Positions 14,358-20,270 of a stretch of 32,508 nt of DNA are shown here, piece by piece. A model generated the notes under the pieces. That model saw nothing but the letters and a program-made list of their open reading frames with translations, made no database searches and was not told the DNA's origin. A program made the translations under genes and the position numbers. The DNA lies in assembly GCA_945893365.1 (NCBI GenBank), contig CAMDED010000085.1, forward strand, positions 1-32,508, given 5' to 3'. The stretch's first letter is position 1, and every line of letters starts with the position of its first letter. Source of the stretch: Candidatus Sulfopaludibacter sp. SbA3. GTDB taxonomy: Bacteria; Acidobacteriota; Terriglobia; Bryobacterales; Bryobacteraceae.

Positions 14358-15365
14358 CTATCCGTCTCCAGCTCGAGCCAGTCGCGGCCCTGGTAATTTA
14401 ACTCCAAAGCGCTCTGCAACAACTTCGGGTACTTCCAGGGATTGAGAGACAGGGTACCCGCATTCACGCCACGCTTTGAGTCCGCCTTCCAGCACCCATA
14501 CTTTGTCAACGCCTATGCGTTTCAAACCCACGGCTGCTCGCGCGCTTACCGCGTCGCTTCCAGAAGAACAATAGAGAACGATCTTGACGTCATCCGGCAC
14601 AGCGATGTATGGAGACTTCCGCAACAGAGCGGGATCTACACTGAAAGCACCCGGAATAGCCTCCAAGCTTTGACTGTCGGTTTCTTCTTCGAGGGTCAAC
14701 AGATCGAGCACTGCGACCTTGCTATTGGATTTCAGTTTGCGTGCGAGCATTAGCGGACTGATGCGGCGCAGCCGTAGTTGACGGATCATTCGCGCCAGAG
14801 TCAGTCCCCGCCAGCCGGCATAGAGAACGATCGGAGTCCCAATCGCGACACCGAGGGCCATCCCAAAATATTGGCCCCAACGAATTGCAACATCCACTTC
14901 ATTCGAGAAGAGATACCCCAGCCCCACATAGACGCCTGACCAGAGGAAGCTGCCTACTGCATCGAGGGCAAGGAAAGTCATGATTGACACTCCTTCGGCG
15001 CCGCCAAGTGGCGGCATAACAGCGTCCAGTCCAGGGAGAAACTTGGCCACACACAATACCGGGAGACCATAGCGGCGGAATTTTTCCTGCGCATTCTTGG
15101 AGCAGCGTCGCGGGTCGGCAGTGAACCGGCAAAGTAGCCGCATAGCCTTCGAACCCCACTTGCGGCCGAGCCAGAACCATGTACCATCCCCTGCCAGGCA
15201 ACCCAAAACACCCAACAAAACAATGATGCTCGTGCGCATTTCACCATGAGCCGAAAGAGAGCCTGCGACCATAAGAAAGGCAACTGAGGGGATCGGCAGG
15301 CCGAGTTGTTGGGCAAGAACCGCAAGGAAAACTCCGCTATAAGTCAATTGTGAGGAGGCGGTCAC
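14358..15365 (-). CDS. DedA-family membrane protein with C-terminal rhodanese domain
   Basis: This 335-residue protein has two parts. Residues 1-200 are a DedA/SNARE-associated (VTT) membrane domain with [31 protein letters not shown] and the conserved [14 protein letters not shown] motif, plus several hydrophobic spans. Residues 225-310 are a rhodanese-like domain with active-site loop [11 protein letters not shown] (candidate catalytic Cys) and [11 protein letters not shown]. DedA proteins are linked to lipid-carrier and phospholipid flipping; the rhodanese part may relay sulfur or sense redox state, which is inference. The GTG start at 15365 overlaps the previous stop by four bases (GTGA). 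It lies just downstream of a phosphoketolase-derived repeat, so the original start may have been replaced. Confidence 0.88.
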
Positions 15366-17122
15366 GATGGTGCTCCGGTTTCAGCGGTGTCTCGAGGAGC
15401 GGCAAGCTCCTCGGCGATGTTCCTGCGCCCAGTGCGCCGTGAATTCAGGTCCACTTCCTGCAGTAAAACGAGAGAAGCGCCATGCCGTCGGAGAATTTCG
15501 GTTACATCCGACAATCGTAAACCCCGCTCGACATTCCAACTGAGAACCTTCACTGAAGATGTCGTTGCGGCCATTCCTCCGATCCCACCTTCCAAAACCC
15601 GGTCCGGGGGCTGGCCGGCGAAAAGTGGACGTGAGAGTGAAAGGAGTACGCACACAAGCAGACATCCCACTATTCGGCTGTGGATCACTGGGGCGCGCCC
15701 CGTCGAAGCGGCGGGTGCTGGTGTTTCGGTGCAGCGGGCGTTTGACATCGCCGATCTTCCTGCCGTCAGCTTCCGGTGTTCAGCGGCAATGCGTCCCGCG
15801 GCCAGGAGCCAAGCCACCGTGAGCGCGACATTGAGCCATGCGAATCCCCCGATGCCAGCGCCAACCATGGTTCCGCCAAACACGATTCCGGCTTGCAGAA
15901 CGTCGCCGGCGCGCATGAAGAAGGTATCGACCGCAGCCTTGGCCTTGTATTTCGCTTCGCGCGAAGTCGGCAGCCAGAGCGCCTGTCTTACAGTGTTCAT
16001 GATTGAGTAATCCGTGCTGTTTTCGAGAATCTTCGTCCAGCGGACCACGGCGAGTACCGGCGCTACAGCCAGGACCGAGTAACTGAGGAGGGCCAGCACG
16101 GGCAAGATGAACAGTGCGCCTCGTACTCCGCAATACCGAAACACGCGGGATGCGCCGAGCGCCTGCAAGACTAGCCCCAGAAAGTTAACGACACTATAGA
16201 AATGTCCGTAAAACTCGCCGATGAAAACCTTTGGGTTGCCGCCCGCTTTGGCGGCTTCGACCACCACCAGTTTGCCAAGTGCGTATTCCCCGATCGTGTT
16301 CACAATGTTGAGCAACACGATTAGAACCGCGATCCAGAAGAGGTATCGGTCCTGCAGAATGAGTTGGAATCCCCCTTTTGCTCCGAGCGGTTCCTGGCCC
16401 TGCCTCACCACCTCCGGCGGCGCCGTCCGCGCCTCGCGCGCGTTCACTGCCAGCATCAGGGCAAGGCACCCCAAAAGAACGGCAGCGGCAATCAGCATCA
16501 GTGAATAGGGCCCCACGGAACTGCTCTTGACGAGCGGCGCAACCACCGCCGAGCCGGCCAAAGCTCCGATGCTCATCCCTACACCAATGAACGGAAACAA
16601 ACGCTCGCCCTGGCTTTCCGTATATATGTCGTTGGCAAAGGCCCAGAATTGCGACACCATGTATACATTGAAAATGCCGAGCCAGATGTAAAAAGCGACG
16701 CCTTCGCGTATGCCACGGGAACCCAGAAACCAGAACAGCACCAAATTGATTGCGAAGAACCCAGTCAGGCTGGCCAACAGGCGACTTCGATTTACTTTCG
16801 TGGCGAACCAGCCGTAGAAAGGAACAATCGCGAGCAGGAGCACGGCCTGGGCGGCGGCGGAGTATGACTTTACCTCCGCGCCGCTTTCAGAGAGAATCAG
16901 CGCCTCGCGGACCGGCTTTAGCAAGTAATAGGCGCCCAGCAGGAGGAAGACGTTGGCCGTCATCAGCAAGGCCGTGATGCCTTCTCCGGCGCGCACATCG
17001 GCAAATACCGACAGCAGTCGCTCCAACCGGCTCTTCGGTTTCCCGCCTAGAGATCGGAAGACCGGGAAGGACTGGTGCGACAGCGCCTCCGGGTGCGCTC
17101 TCAGTTCTGGGGGCTCTACCAT
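15362..17122 (-). CDS. NTP/NDP-exchange-type transporter fused to truncated phosphatase domain
   Basis: The ORF encodes 586 residues. Residues 1 to about 455 form an MFS-like transporter with some 11-12 membrane segments, resembling Npt1/Npt2 (Tlc-type) nucleotide transporters (FLLLGAYYLLKPVREALILS near the start, NDIYTESQGERLFPFIGVG, STDYSIMNTVRQALWLP). From Met459 a second start-like sequence follows, with a hydrophobic signal or anchor (IVGCLLVCVLLSLSRPLFA). It leads into the first strands of an endonuclease/exonuclease/phosphatase domain: VKVLSWNVERGLRLSDV and LVLLQEVDLNSRRTGRRNI, with the catalytic Asn and Glu. That domain stops after about 50 residues and runs into phosphoketolase-derived DNA, so its Asp/His half is missing. 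The transporter substrate is unproven. It overlaps the upstream gene by seven bases and DedA by four. Confidence 0.82.
   Translation of the reverse strand: MVEPPELRAHPEALSHQSFPVFRSLGGKPKSRLERLLSVFADVRAGEGITALLMTANVFLLLGAYYLLKPVREALILSESGAEVKSYSAAAQAVLLLAIVPFYGWFATKVNRSRLLASLTGFFAINLVLFWFLGSRGIREGVAFYIWLGIFNVYMVSQFWAFANDIYTESQGERLFPFIGVGMSIGALAGSAVVAPLVKSSSVGPYSLMLIAAAVLLGCLALMLAVNAREARTAPPEVVRQGQEPLGAKGGFQLILQDRYLFWIAVLIVLLNIVNTIGEYALGKLVVVEAAKAGGNPKVFIGEFYGHFYSVVNFLGLVLQALGASRVFRYCGVRGALFILPVLALLSYSVLAVAPVLAVVRWTKILENSTDYSIMNTVRQALWLPTSREAKYKAKAAVDTFFMRAGDVLQAGIVFGGTMVGAGIGGFAWLNVALTVAWLLAAGRIAAEHRKLTAGRSAMSNARCTETPAPAASTGRAPVIHSRIVGCLLVCVLLSLSRPLFAGQPPDRVLEGGIGGMAATTSSVKVLSWNVERGLRLSDVTEILRRHGASLVLLQEVDLNSRRTGRRNIAEELAAPRDTAETGAPS
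15371..15402. repeat. Phosphoketolase-derived 32-bp scar (copy B)
   Basis: 30 of 32 bases match xfp 14103-14134, but here the segment is read in another frame as the last codons of the transporter-phosphatase ORF. Weaker similarity to xfp continues about 18 bases further, across the DedA start. In the xfp frame it would read PLLETPLKPEH, one substitution from copy A. It looks like a remnant of a second phosphoketolase gene. Confidence 0.8.
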
Positions 17123-18741
17123 GTGCGATCGACCCCCACGATTTGCGCCAGTTCGCCGCGCTTGCGGATGTAGACCCGCACGCTCTGCCGCGGACGCTCG
17201 GGTGATTCGAGCACGGCCATCCAGTATCCGTCTCCCCGCATTTCCGGCAGCCGCGCCGAGTTCTCTCCTGGGATTTCCTCGCTTGTCTCTCGTTCGTTGT
17301 CGAAGGTCGCCCAGCGGACCTGGATCTCCAGAACTGCGCCCAATCCGTTCTCGGCTGCGAGATCGATCCACTCAAGTCCTCCATCCGCGACGCGAAACCG
17401 GTCCAACGCAAGCAGCTTGGAGGACCAAGCTTGGGCGATCTTGTCACGGCGCTTGATCAGACAGTCGGCGATCCAGTCGGCTGCGCGCTGGTCACTCAAT
17501 TCGCCAGTCTCTACCATTGCCCTAATTTCACCGTCGGTGAAGGCAGCCACCTGCTTTGCCGCCCAGAAGGCATCCGCCCTATCCATCATTAGAAATGCCG
17601 GATTGGGAACTTCCGGTTTCCACTGGAGCGGATCGAAAGACCATGCATCGAATAGTCCGACACCCCTCAACTTGGAGTAGTCAGACCGCTGCCAGCGCGG
17701 GACGTACAAGCCGAAAGTCACTGCACGCGCCACCGCCTCTTTATGCGCGATCATGTTCTGGTGCCCGATCCATGGCTCCTTCGGTCGGTCGCCACGGCTG
17801 CCCAGAATGGAACCGAAGTCTATCAGATGGTGCTTGAGGTATTGGCGACCATCCTCCGTTACCAGGACGTCCATAGTATTGATTTGGCTGGTGTCGTGGT
17901 GATTCAGCCAGGCGCTGAAAACGGCCAGACCGCGCAACACTCGACGGTCCTGATGAGGGATCGTATCGTTCGGATCGTCACTCCTGGCGCCGCGATAGTC
18001 GAACGGTCCTACCACCTTGCCATCGAGCCACCGGCTTGCCAGCGCACGGTACGTGCCATCGGCCAACTTCGGCTGCGCTTGCAAAAGTTCGTCGACCATA
18101 TGCTCGGTGAGGGGAATCTTCTTCCCGCTCGGATGCCGGTACATTACGCCATCGGCGAGCTCAAGTTGCTGGCGACGGAAACGGACGATATAGTTTTCCG
18201 GCGTAGAGTAACCGAGGGCGTAGAATATCTTGCTGCCGATCACGTCCGCCGCGGAGCACAACTCGGGATATAGCGGCGGGTCGAACTTCAGCACATATCG
18301 ATGTTCGTGCCCGTCTTCGATGACAAATCCCGGCGTTATGCCGTCGCTCTTGGCCGCCGTGATGCGCCAGGCGCGGTTGGGATCAGGCGGCGTGCTGTTG
18401 CCCGGTCCGCGCTGGAGCTCGGCAATCGACATCCGGTGGAATGCATGCCGGTTTGTGTACCAAGAGCTGTCAGGAACCTCGCCCAGCGTATTCACATCGA
18501 GCGCAGGCTGCGGCGCATGCTTTGCGGCCTTGCCCTCGCGGCGAGGAGTCACATACGACCCATTCAGGAAGTCGTAAATGTGGTCGACGCCGCGGATTGC
18601 GATGCCGCTTACAGGCCGTGGCTCCGGTTCGCGCCACAATGGGTCATCGGCATAGAATTTCCTGCCATGATCCTCCGCGGACGCCTGTTGACCCAGCGCT
18701 CCGGCGACCGCAATTGCGGCAATCCAAAGAGCGTTGCGCAT
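17116..18741 (-). CDS. Exported protein with kinase-like motifs
   Basis: This 541-residue protein starts with a Sec signal peptide (MRNALWIAAIAVAGALG, predicted cut after QQASA). The ATG at 18741 is chosen because it begins that peptide; the longer open frame upstream overlaps the Omp85 gene. The mature part shows an ordered set of kinase-like elements: YVLKFDPP (Lys152), LNHHDTSQINTMDVL (Asp283, Asn288, like an HxDxxxxN catalytic loop) and HHLIDFGSILG (Asp309 of a DFG-type metal site). The final 90 residues are beta-rich and may be a ligand-binding tail. I do not know a named family. A HipA/Fam20-like fold is inferred from these motifs. It starts two bases after the Omp85 stop and overlaps the transporter by seven bases. 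Confidence 0.8.
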   Translation of the reverse strand: MRNALWIAAIAVAGALGQQASAEDHGRKFYADDPLWREPEPRPVSGIAIRGVDHIYDFLNGSYVTPRREGKAAKHAPQPALDVNTLGEVPDSSWYTNRHAFHRMSIAELQRGPGNSTPPDPNRAWRITAAKSDGITPGFVIEDGHEHRYVLKFDPPLYPELCSAADVIGSKIFYALGYSTPENYIVRFRRQQLELADGVMYRHPSGKKIPLTEHMVDELLQAQPKLADGTYRALASRWLDGKVVGPFDYRGARSDDPNDTIPHQDRRVLRGLAVFSAWLNHHDTSQINTMDVLVTEDGRQYLKHHLIDFGSILGSRGDRPKEPWIGHQNMIAHKEAVARAVTFGLYVPRWQRSDYSKLRGVGLFDAWSFDPLQWKPEVPNPAFLMMDRADAFWAAKQVAAFTDGEIRAMVETGELSDQRAADWIADCLIKRRDKIAQAWSSKLLALDRFRVADGGLEWIDLAAENGLGAVLEIQVRWATFDNERETSEEIPGENSARLPEMRGDGYWMAVLESPERPRQSVRVYIRKRGELAQIVGVDRTW

Positions 18742-18743
18742 GG

Positions 18744-19967
18744 TTAGTTCATAGTGTTTACGCGAAACCATATTTGAAATCCCTCGTGGCTGAAGCCTGT
18801 ATCTACAGTGAATGCCGGTCTTGCTGCCCTCCCTTTGAAGCGCACGCTGAAACCGACGTCGCTTTCGAGATTGTGGAAGTTCCACTGCTCCCAGTGCTGG
18901 AAGACTTTTCCTGCGTCGGCAAACACGGCCATATCGAGGGCGGGCGAACAAAACCAACGGTACTCGCCGTTCACCATAACCGAGTTGTCGCCATAAAAGC
19001 GGTTGAAGCGATACCCGCGTAGCGTATTCGAACCGCCCAGGGTTGGTTGAAGATAGAAGGGAACGAGTTGTCCGTTGCCGGCTGTGGTGAGCGAGGACGA
19101 TCCGTGCAGGGCGAAAACCCGCGTGCGATTGAATAGCGGGATATACTGCGAGGCGTCCAGATCCAGCCGCAGGAAGCTGTAAGCGCCGAGATTCCTGTCC
19201 AGGTAGCGGACGTACTGCGCCGAATACCTGCCGCCGCTGGCCGGGTAGGAGATCTGGTCACGCCAGTCATATTCGACGAAGCCGCCGCCGCGCCAGAAGT
19301 TCGTTTGCCGGTCAAGGCCGGGAGCGGCAGCCGGACCGAACTGCTCCTCTGTCGAAATGTAGCGTGTGGAGTGACCAAGGCCGGTGTTGACGGCGAGGTA
19401 TGACCCGATCAGCCCGGCGCTCAGCCCTTTGAAGACACGGATTCCGGGGCGTAATTCGACATTGGTGTCTTCCAGGCGATAGTTGCTGCGTCCGGTCTTA
19501 CTCGAATCCGGTCCAAGGCCATAGTACGGCATTTCTGAGATATTGCGGTGCTGCGTGCTGAATGTAGCGAACGTGCGGTCGCTAAATAGACGCGGCAGTG
19601 TAACCGCCAGCCGGCCGCCATACGATTCGTTGATCGCCGCACTCGCGTCTACCCTGAGGATGAGCTTGCTTTCCCACATCGGCTTCGTGTACCTCGGCCC
19701 GATGGCAAAGCCTGAGCCCGGCACCATGTTGCCGAGCGATACGCCGAACCCATGGGCTTCGCCGGTGAGGAGCCGGTATGGCAGGCTGTTTTGAGTTCTT
19801 ACGATTACGCGCTCCGCTTTTGGCGGAACCAAAGGCGTCAGCTTCGTTTCCTTTTCCGTTCGCGCCGACTGAATCAGATCGGTCCGCGATTGTGCCTGAG
19901 CCTCCCGCTCCGCCCAAAGGACGAAAAGGCTGAAGCCCAAAACTGCTATCCGTTTCGATTGTGTCAT
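18744..19967 (-). CDS. Omp85/BamA-TamA family outer-membrane beta-barrel
   Basis: This 407-residue protein has a signal peptide (RIAVLGFSLFVLWAEREAQAQ), a linker of about 40 residues and a barrel of roughly 16 amphipathic strands ending in aromatic FQIWFRV. The loop-6 signature of Omp85 proteins is present as GGSNTLRGYRFNRFYGDN. No POTRA domains are visible between signal and barrel, so this is the short surface-antigen type, not BamA itself. Residues near MNAGLAALP on the opposite strand are only a shadow. The ATG at 19967 is preferred to the GTG at 19970 because GGAG lies six bases upstream of it. It is the first gene of the minus-strand run and may secrete or insert a partner, possibly the kinase-like protein next to it (inference). 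Confidence 0.88.
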   Translation of the reverse strand: MTQSKRIAVLGFSLFVLWAEREAQAQSRTDLIQSARTEKETKLTPLVPPKAERVIVRTQNSLPYRLLTGEAHGFGVSLGNMVPGSGFAIGPRYTKPMWESKLILRVDASAAINESYGGRLAVTLPRLFSDRTFATFSTQHRNISEMPYYGLGPDSSKTGRSNYRLEDTNVELRPGIRVFKGLSAGLIGSYLAVNTGLGHSTRYISTEEQFGPAAAPGLDRQTNFWRGGGFVEYDWRDQISYPASGGRYSAQYVRYLDRNLGAYSFLRLDLDASQYIPLFNRTRVFALHGSSSLTTAGNGQLVPFYLQPTLGGSNTLRGYRFNRFYGDNSVMVNGEYRWFCSPALDMAVFADAGKVFQHWEQWNFHNLESDVGFSVRFKGRAARPAFTVDTGFSHEGFQIWFRVNTMN

Positions 19968-20270
19968 CACTCTCTCCGTTAGCTTCTGGAGCCTGGCTCC
20001 CTCGGAAGTCGCGTTTGCGCCACCGAAGCGGCTCCCGCCGCCGTTAGCGCCAGAACTGCAACTCGCGTGAAGTACATATTCAACACGTCCTAACAGGTTG
20101 CACGCTGGAATCCACTTCGCTGCCGTTTGGCATCAACAGCTTGGGAATAGCACCCGCCGTCGTTCGCCGAACAGATTCGGCACCTGCCGGCATCAGGCGC
20201 CGAAGTCAACGGAAGAGTGGCAATCGGGCGTTATCGAGCTGGAGGGACCTTAATGTGCTAGTACCGTTAG
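19968..20270. other. Divergent intergenic region between Omp85 and glgX
   Basis: These 303 bases separate two divergent genes and should hold both promoters. I cannot assign -35/-10 boxes with confidence. The one clear element is an imperfect inverted repeat at 20176-20204. A short ATG-TGC-TAG minicistron at 20253, preceded by GGAGGGA, sits just before glgX and may be fortuitous. Confidence 0.5.
20176..20204. promoter_or_regulatory. 11-bp inverted repeat upstream of glgX
   Basis: The arms TTCGGCACCTG (20176-20186) and CAGGCGCCGAA (20194-20204) pair at 10 of 11 positions around a 7-nt spacer, 66 bases before the glgX start and 208 bases before the Omp85 start. It could be an operator for a dimeric repressor or a transcribed hairpin. 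Confidence 0.45.

Follow-up and report, generated by a model that had tools for sequence, protein, structure and literature searches.

The bacterial periplasm is generally held to be ATP-free, and soluble kinases are for that reason not expected in it. The stretch of DNA considered here (the window: all 32,508 nucleotides of contig CAMDED010000085.1 of Candidatus Sulfopaludibacter sp. SbA3, an acidobacterium) encodes a 541-residue kinase-like protein that appears, from its sequence, to be exported. Its gene, at 17116-18741 on the minus strand, lies between a gene for an Omp85 outer-membrane barrel and a gene for an ATP/ADP-type carrier of the NTT/TLC family. Is this protein an active kinase, and if so, what would provide its ATP? 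The answer that we favor, at a probability of roughly 0.55, is that it is an active exported atypical kinase of the HipA/CtkA/Fam20C type, part of an envelope phosphorylation module that takes its ATP from an outward-running NTT. Four computed results carry the argument: the kinase fold, a conserved active site, a recurrent gene linkage and a co-occurrence of genes across genomes.

A kinase-like protein with an apparent export signal

The sequence-only reading that drew attention to this gene placed its open reading frame exactly, naming no strand, and pointed to a signal peptide, which we also recognize. The apparent export signal, residues 1-22 (18676-18741; this and all other window features given below are on the minus strand), reads MRNALWIAAIAVAGALGQQASA/ED. 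The judgment is by eye, as is the finding that in most of 79 homologous loci (drawn from the best 80 of 430 relatives in a scan of genome contigs) a hydrophobic stretch directly precedes the conserved start (K/R)(K/R)FYxDDP of the protein. HipA and HipA_2 proteins are cytoplasmic, and a signal peptide judged by eye leaves a little room for the idea that it does not function and that the protein, as a HipA-like kinase, stays in the cytoplasm. The recurrence of hydrophobic N-termini and the partnership with an outer-membrane protein make that idea extremely improbable.

Behind the signal peptide comes an N-terminal extension (residues 23-115; 18397-18675), marked by conserved columns that include the motifs FxxDDP and NTxGxVPDSxW, then the predicted kinase domain (residues 116-444; 17410-18396) and a C-terminal β-rich domain (residues 445-541; 17119-17409), whose strands are predicted at high pLDDT (predicted local distance difference test). 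Neither Pfam nor NCBIfam offers an accepted match to the protein, PADLOC assigns it no family, a sequence search of the PDB returned a chance-level match only, and a plasmid search found no relative. A weak Pfam match to KilAC (E 0.19) was dismissed as chance. One paralogue, 42% identical to the window kinase, is encoded elsewhere in the genome (7.88 Mb in 299 contigs). The closest homologue, in locus L019 of genome G007 from the same bacterial family, is 79% identical, and comparison of the two genes indicates purifying selection (non-synonymous divergence, dN, 0.118; synonymous divergence, dS, 0.64). Other homologues belong to Edaphobacter aggregans DSM 19364 (L073) and Bryobacterales bacterium F-183 (L071).

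That the order of sequence motifs reflects a kinase-like fold had been proposed from the sequence-only reading, and structure prediction bears it out. An AlphaFold2 model built from 16 sequences (mean pLDDT 81.8; predicted template modelling score, pTM, 0.84) is poorly predicted at residues 1-25, 61-75 and 319-352, the last of these just behind the DFG motif, where the activation segment would lie. At E ≤ 0.001 Foldseek returned 11 PDB chains, each of them Golgi casein kinase/Fam20C or CtkA. In VIA-align, where a best Z of 7-8 is quoted as typical of models that match nothing clearly, all of the following comparisons exceed that level: CtkA (Z 15.3, root-mean-square deviation (rmsd) 4.7 over 243 residues; the top match), Fam20C1 (Z 13.7, rmsd 4.1, 261 residues), Fam20A (Z 13.7, rmsd 4.0, 259 residues), CotH (Z 12.4, rmsd 4.3, 232 residues), PI4KII-alpha (Z 12.4, rmsd 4.7, 236 residues), actin-fragmin kinase (Z 12.1, rmsd 4.1, 235 residues), the bacterial kinase 7vkc (Z 11.8, rmsd 3.8, 222 residues) and HipA (4pu5; Z 11.5, rmsd 4.0, 222 residues). 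A two-lobed atypical-kinase fold is thus well supported by the model, and a shared fold by itself shows no function. With high scores for CtkA, Fam20, PI4KII-alpha and HipA alike, the fold does not distinguish among protein, lipid and glycan substrates.

The likeness to the best structural match, CtkA of Helicobacter pylori (PDB 3akj-3akl; aligned range, residues 116-449), goes with only 12% identity over the aligned part and is not detectable in a sequence search of the PDB. The Golgi secretory-pathway kinases Fam20C and Fam20A, which likewise work outside the cytosol, align from about residue 34, that is, from within the N-terminal extension. Identity to the window kinase, which is bacterial, is only 8-9%, and neither this protein nor any of the 16 members of the aligned set matches Fam20C in Pfam at E up to 1. 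We know of no Omp85 or NTT partner of CtkA. The spore-coat kinase CotH, which resembles the window kinase in fold, is described as Fam20C-like and as having no DFG motif (PMC12189002); the window kinase, unlike CotH as described there, keeps its DFG. Membership in the CotH family (PF08757) was considered and rejected (no Pfam match; at most 0.2% in the profile comparison described below).

The residues that would make up the active site lie where the sequence-only reading put them, with one correction: the aspartate of LIDFG is residue 308, not 309. The others are Lys152 in VLKFD and Asp283 and Asn288 in NHHDTSQINTMD. An alignment of 16 homologues, the window protein and 15 others that are 40-79% identical to it, shows no exception at any of the four. 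A wider alignment was assembled from 127 rows, of which 108 were kept after removal of rows identical over residues 61-300; kinase pieces shorter than 400 residues in the 79-locus set, and spans of 350 residues or less at other loci, had been left out beforehand. The predicted nucleotide-binding lysine, Lys152 (codon 18286-18288), is K in 106 rows and R in two; residue 166 (18244-18246), which lies at the helix-C position inside a predicted helix (161-176), is D in 83 and E in 24, making an acid in 107; the predicted catalytic Asp283 (17893-17895) is kept in 105, the predicted metal-binding Asn288 (17878-17880) in 107, the DFG aspartate Asp308 (17818-17820) in all 108 and Gly310 in 105. The set of lysine, helix-C acid, catalytic aspartate, asparagine and DFG aspartate is accordingly kept in 105-108 of the 108 rows, as against 59% for the top residue in the mean alignment column. 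The block RxDDPNDxxxHxxRRxxR, which precedes the catalytic loop at residues 253-270 (17932-17987), is as constant as the active site, at R253, D255, D256, N258, D259, H263, R267 and R270. Neither an unrelated fold nor a lack of conservation, the two outcomes that would have spoken against a kinase, was found.

Fold and residues together do not specify the group that is transferred, and kinase folds with AMP-transferring or ligase-like chemistry are known in SelO and SidJ. The protein could, then, be an exported enzyme of that sort or a non-catalytic binding protein. We judge this quite unlikely: a set of active-site residues that is near-universal in the 108 rows would be superfluous for mere binding.

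Some copies are broken and stand among the pieces left out of the alignment: a stop splits the frame of L084, and L131 lacks the Lys152 stretch and everything from the DFG aspartate onward. Kinase genes are in tandem in L023 and L027. Locus L090 is titled Arcobacter, and its kinase groups with a Bryobacteraceae sequence, perhaps through a binning error or transfer.

The family and its relation to HipA

Among the 16 members, Pfam matches to HipA families fall below the gathering cut-offs: HipA_2 (PF20613) in four (best E 0.11) and HipA_C (PF07804) in one (best E 0.053). The window protein itself has no HipA match in Pfam at E up to 1, and PF20613 detects two other genes of the same genome (C133 and C193), not the window kinase. 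Profiles were also compared with one another, using 10 HipA_C, 6 HipA_2 and 11 CotH loci (from 15, 19 and 12 fetched). The first kinase profile gave 81.4% for HipA_2 and 20.7% for HipA_C, the second 54.5% and 29.5%; with distant relatives added the figures became 48.7% and 69.8%, and a profile of the distant relatives by themselves yielded 0.2% and 6.6%. The controls came to 0.1-0.2% for reversed targets and at most 2.9% for four unrelated neighbor families. In the HipA_C profile alignment the lysine, catalytic aspartate, asparagine and metal-binding aspartate coincide with Lys152, Asp283, Asn288 and Asp308.

Because the matches to HipA_C and HipA_2 stand against such low controls and the active-site residues are in register, the family is probably related to HipA; it lies outside the HipA families as currently defined. 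The likeness to HipA/HipT (PF07804, PF20613) consists of the fold, the Lys/Asp/Asn/Asp register and the weak Pfam matches. Unlike HipA, the window kinase has an apparent export signal, extra N- and C-terminal regions and, in the place of HipB, an adjacent Omp85 gene: no HipB-type antitoxin gene adjoins the kinase gene, which has Omp85 upstream and the NTT downstream.

The distant relatives come from eight regions fetched on weak matches, the broken copy L131 included. The other seven (L128-L130 and L132-L135; open frames of 347-698 residues) form a distant, exported-looking subfamily in Acidobacteriota, and all seven keep K152, D283, N288, D308, G310 and G314. A Pfam scan of three of them found no match. 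Their contexts show Omp85 directly upstream in one (L208), a metallophosphatase in one (L209) and, in the remaining five, none of the profiled partner genes.

Barrel, carrier and phosphatase genes beside the kinase

The sequence-only reading named an Omp85 barrel and a nucleotide-type transporter as the neighbors of the kinase gene, and both identifications hold; both genes also recur with the kinase far beyond this one genome. The three genes are on one strand and nearly contiguous. The barrel gene (18744-19970; 408 residues) ends two bases before the kinase start and is recognized by PF01103 at E 1.2e-16 (61.6 bits against a cut-off of 24). No POTRA family is among its Pfam matches up to E 1, and a structural model, which is poor (pLDDT 54.3), shows nothing but helices ahead of its first strand, at residue 75. 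In its Omp85 domain and in having no POTRA family among its Pfam matches, this protein resembles the 'noNterm' Omp85 proteins of PMC4104836; it is paired here with an exported-looking kinase, and the word 'kinase' is absent from that text. The likely ATG of the carrier gene (15746-17122; 3' limit approximate) overlaps the 3' end of the kinase gene by seven bases. Its product matches the TLC domain (PF03219) at E 1.1e-15 (57.9 bits against a cut-off of 21) and aligns, by sequence similarity, with the ADP,ATP carriers PDB 9j3n (E 1e-12) and 9j3j.

How firmly do these genes keep company? The profiles used for the neighbor search were built from neighbors in the same 79 loci, and their Pfam names come from single representatives. 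Omp85 lies upstream of the kinase on the same strand in 77 of the 79 (in L023 ahead of the tandem kinase pair); of the two others, L080 has it downstream, and in L093 the sequence starts 66 bases ahead of the match. Tandem Omp85 barrels occur in L028. An NTT or NTT-HEAT gene lies within 5 kb of the kinase in 45 of the 79 loci and directly downstream in 25. It is because the barrel link is so much tighter than the carrier link (77/79 against 45/79) that we take as the main rival a kinase displayed at the surface or secreted by the Omp85 barrel, acting on neighboring cells or matrix with ATP from outside, the NTT merely recovering nucleotides. In PlpD an Omp85 barrel does deliver an enzyme domain, a patatin, to the surface (PMC4104836). 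Against this rival, the window barrel shows neither an evident POTRA domain nor a fusion, the NTT start overlaps the kinase gene in the window and the NTT lies directly downstream in 25 loci. We regard a surface or secreted kinase as unlikely.

On a kinase tree of 79 (the window and 78 others; L084 left out) linked NTT is present in 46, absent in 22 and unscored in 11. Presence changes at least 15 times, with nine arrangements, so the link between kinase and NTT has arisen or disappeared repeatedly, and the tree does not tell gains from losses. The kinase model finds matches in 59 of 297 Acidobacteriota genomes, nine of which match only weakly. If these nine are counted as negative, 50 kinase genomes remain (best E below 1e-30), and 47 of them have an NTT match, as do 75 of the 247 others (Fisher p 7.7e-18, kinship not removed). 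In a subset of 21 genomes a TLC match (E ≤ 0.001) is found in 8/8 with the kinase, among which the TLC of G007 is below the curated cut-off and the kinase match of G027 is partial, vs 3/13 without. In the phylum sample at least 19 of 62 kinase places have an NTT within 6 kb.

A metallophosphatase or PAP2 gene lies within 5 kb in 33 of the 79 loci, and an NTT or a phosphatase of either kind in 52; in the 49 loci with more than 5 kb on both sides, NTT, phosphatase and either kind number 30, 21 and 33. Phosphatase neighbors fit reversible phosphorylation and also the scavenging of phosphate. One can picture a cluster in which the NTT imports nucleotides and phosphatases free their phosphate, with a minor part for the kinase-like protein. 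An EEP-family gene (endonuclease/exonuclease/phosphatase) behind the kinase in L019 would suit such a cluster, as would the import activity of known NTTs (PMC5381601). In that case the invariant kinase active site would have nothing to do, and it is Omp85, not a phosphatase, that constantly accompanies the kinase. Scavenging is, in our estimate, very unlikely.

Several further features of these neighborhoods deserve mention. Past the single-domain NTT, the opposite strand often carries a second NTT gene, which places two NTTs beside one kinase operon (L021, L039, L044, L048, L056, L071, L091, L097 and others); these second genes are longer and, in two representatives scanned, contain HEAT repeats. 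Of the 79 loci, 23 contain a gene of ordinary Ser/Thr kinase type (recognized by eye in the representative L097), which often lies on the far side of the NTT-HEAT gene. In the window the NTT frame continues into 15362-15745, which encodes what resembles the signal peptide and initial part of an EEP protein; this fragment ends where the next gene begins, and in L019 a full-length EEP gene directly follows the kinase. The product of the next window gene (14358-15365) is a fusion of a DedA/UptA-like membrane domain (VTT) with a rhodanese domain.

A candidate envelope phosphorylation module

Kinase activity, outward ATP transport, the role of the barrel and the substrate are matters that we infer. 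In the proposed mechanism an NTT/TLC carrier in the inner membrane would exchange cytoplasmic ATP for spent ADP and so feed the kinase; the Omp85 barrel without evident POTRA might anchor the kinase at the outer membrane, display it or pass it through; and the phosphatases encoded nearby in many genomes could reverse or balance its phosphorylation. A more specific version, which we put forward tentatively and at somewhat less than even odds, is a dedicated ATP-fuelled envelope system in which the outward NTT feeds a HipA/Fam20-type kinase of the periplasm that either docks on Omp85 or is exported by way of it, with phosphatases as its opponents: a bacterial counterpart of Golgi Fam20C equipped with its own nucleotide carrier. 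The window carrier and those of the other loci match TLC, and the longer neighbors carry HEAT repeats, like the NTT/TLC carriers and NTT-HEAT fusions of PMC5381601; the direction proposed here is outward, and 'kinase' is absent from that text.

A number of observations weigh against the active exported kinase fed by an outward NTT. Known NTTs import ATP (PMC5381601), and the window NTT falls far below the NCBIfam TIGR00769 cut-off (48.6 against 387.2 bits). The carrier is neither always near nor dedicated, since an NTT is missing within 5 kb in 22 of the 68 scored loci (among them L019, where the sequence goes on for just 3 kb downstream), no NTT match at all occurs in three kinase genomes (G061, G064 and G108) and 75 kinase-less genomes do have one; the co-occurrence figure, moreover, takes no account of kinship. 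At the paralogue locus L175 an Omp85 gene adjoins the kinase and a metallophosphatase gene lies on the opposite strand, with no NTT match in the surrounding 14 kb. As to the kinase itself, the match to the HipA_C profile is just 20.7-29.5% when distant relatives are left aside.

On the evidence of the model, this is an unnamed new branch of a known fold in Acidobacteriota, and the model gives a first structural reading of an unannotated family. Among the titles and abstracts listed by searches of the open PMC library with the terms chosen, none describes the kinase family or the trio of Omp85, kinase and NTT. The functions of the NTTs of free-living bacteria are left open in PMC5381601. If the proposal is true, it would suggest a role for these NTT genes and for the type of Omp85 without evident POTRA. 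Phosphorylation may then occur in a compartment thought to be without ATP. The rule of the ATP-free periplasm can be tested directly on this kinase family, which is conserved, apparently exported and in the company of an ATP/ADP-type carrier.

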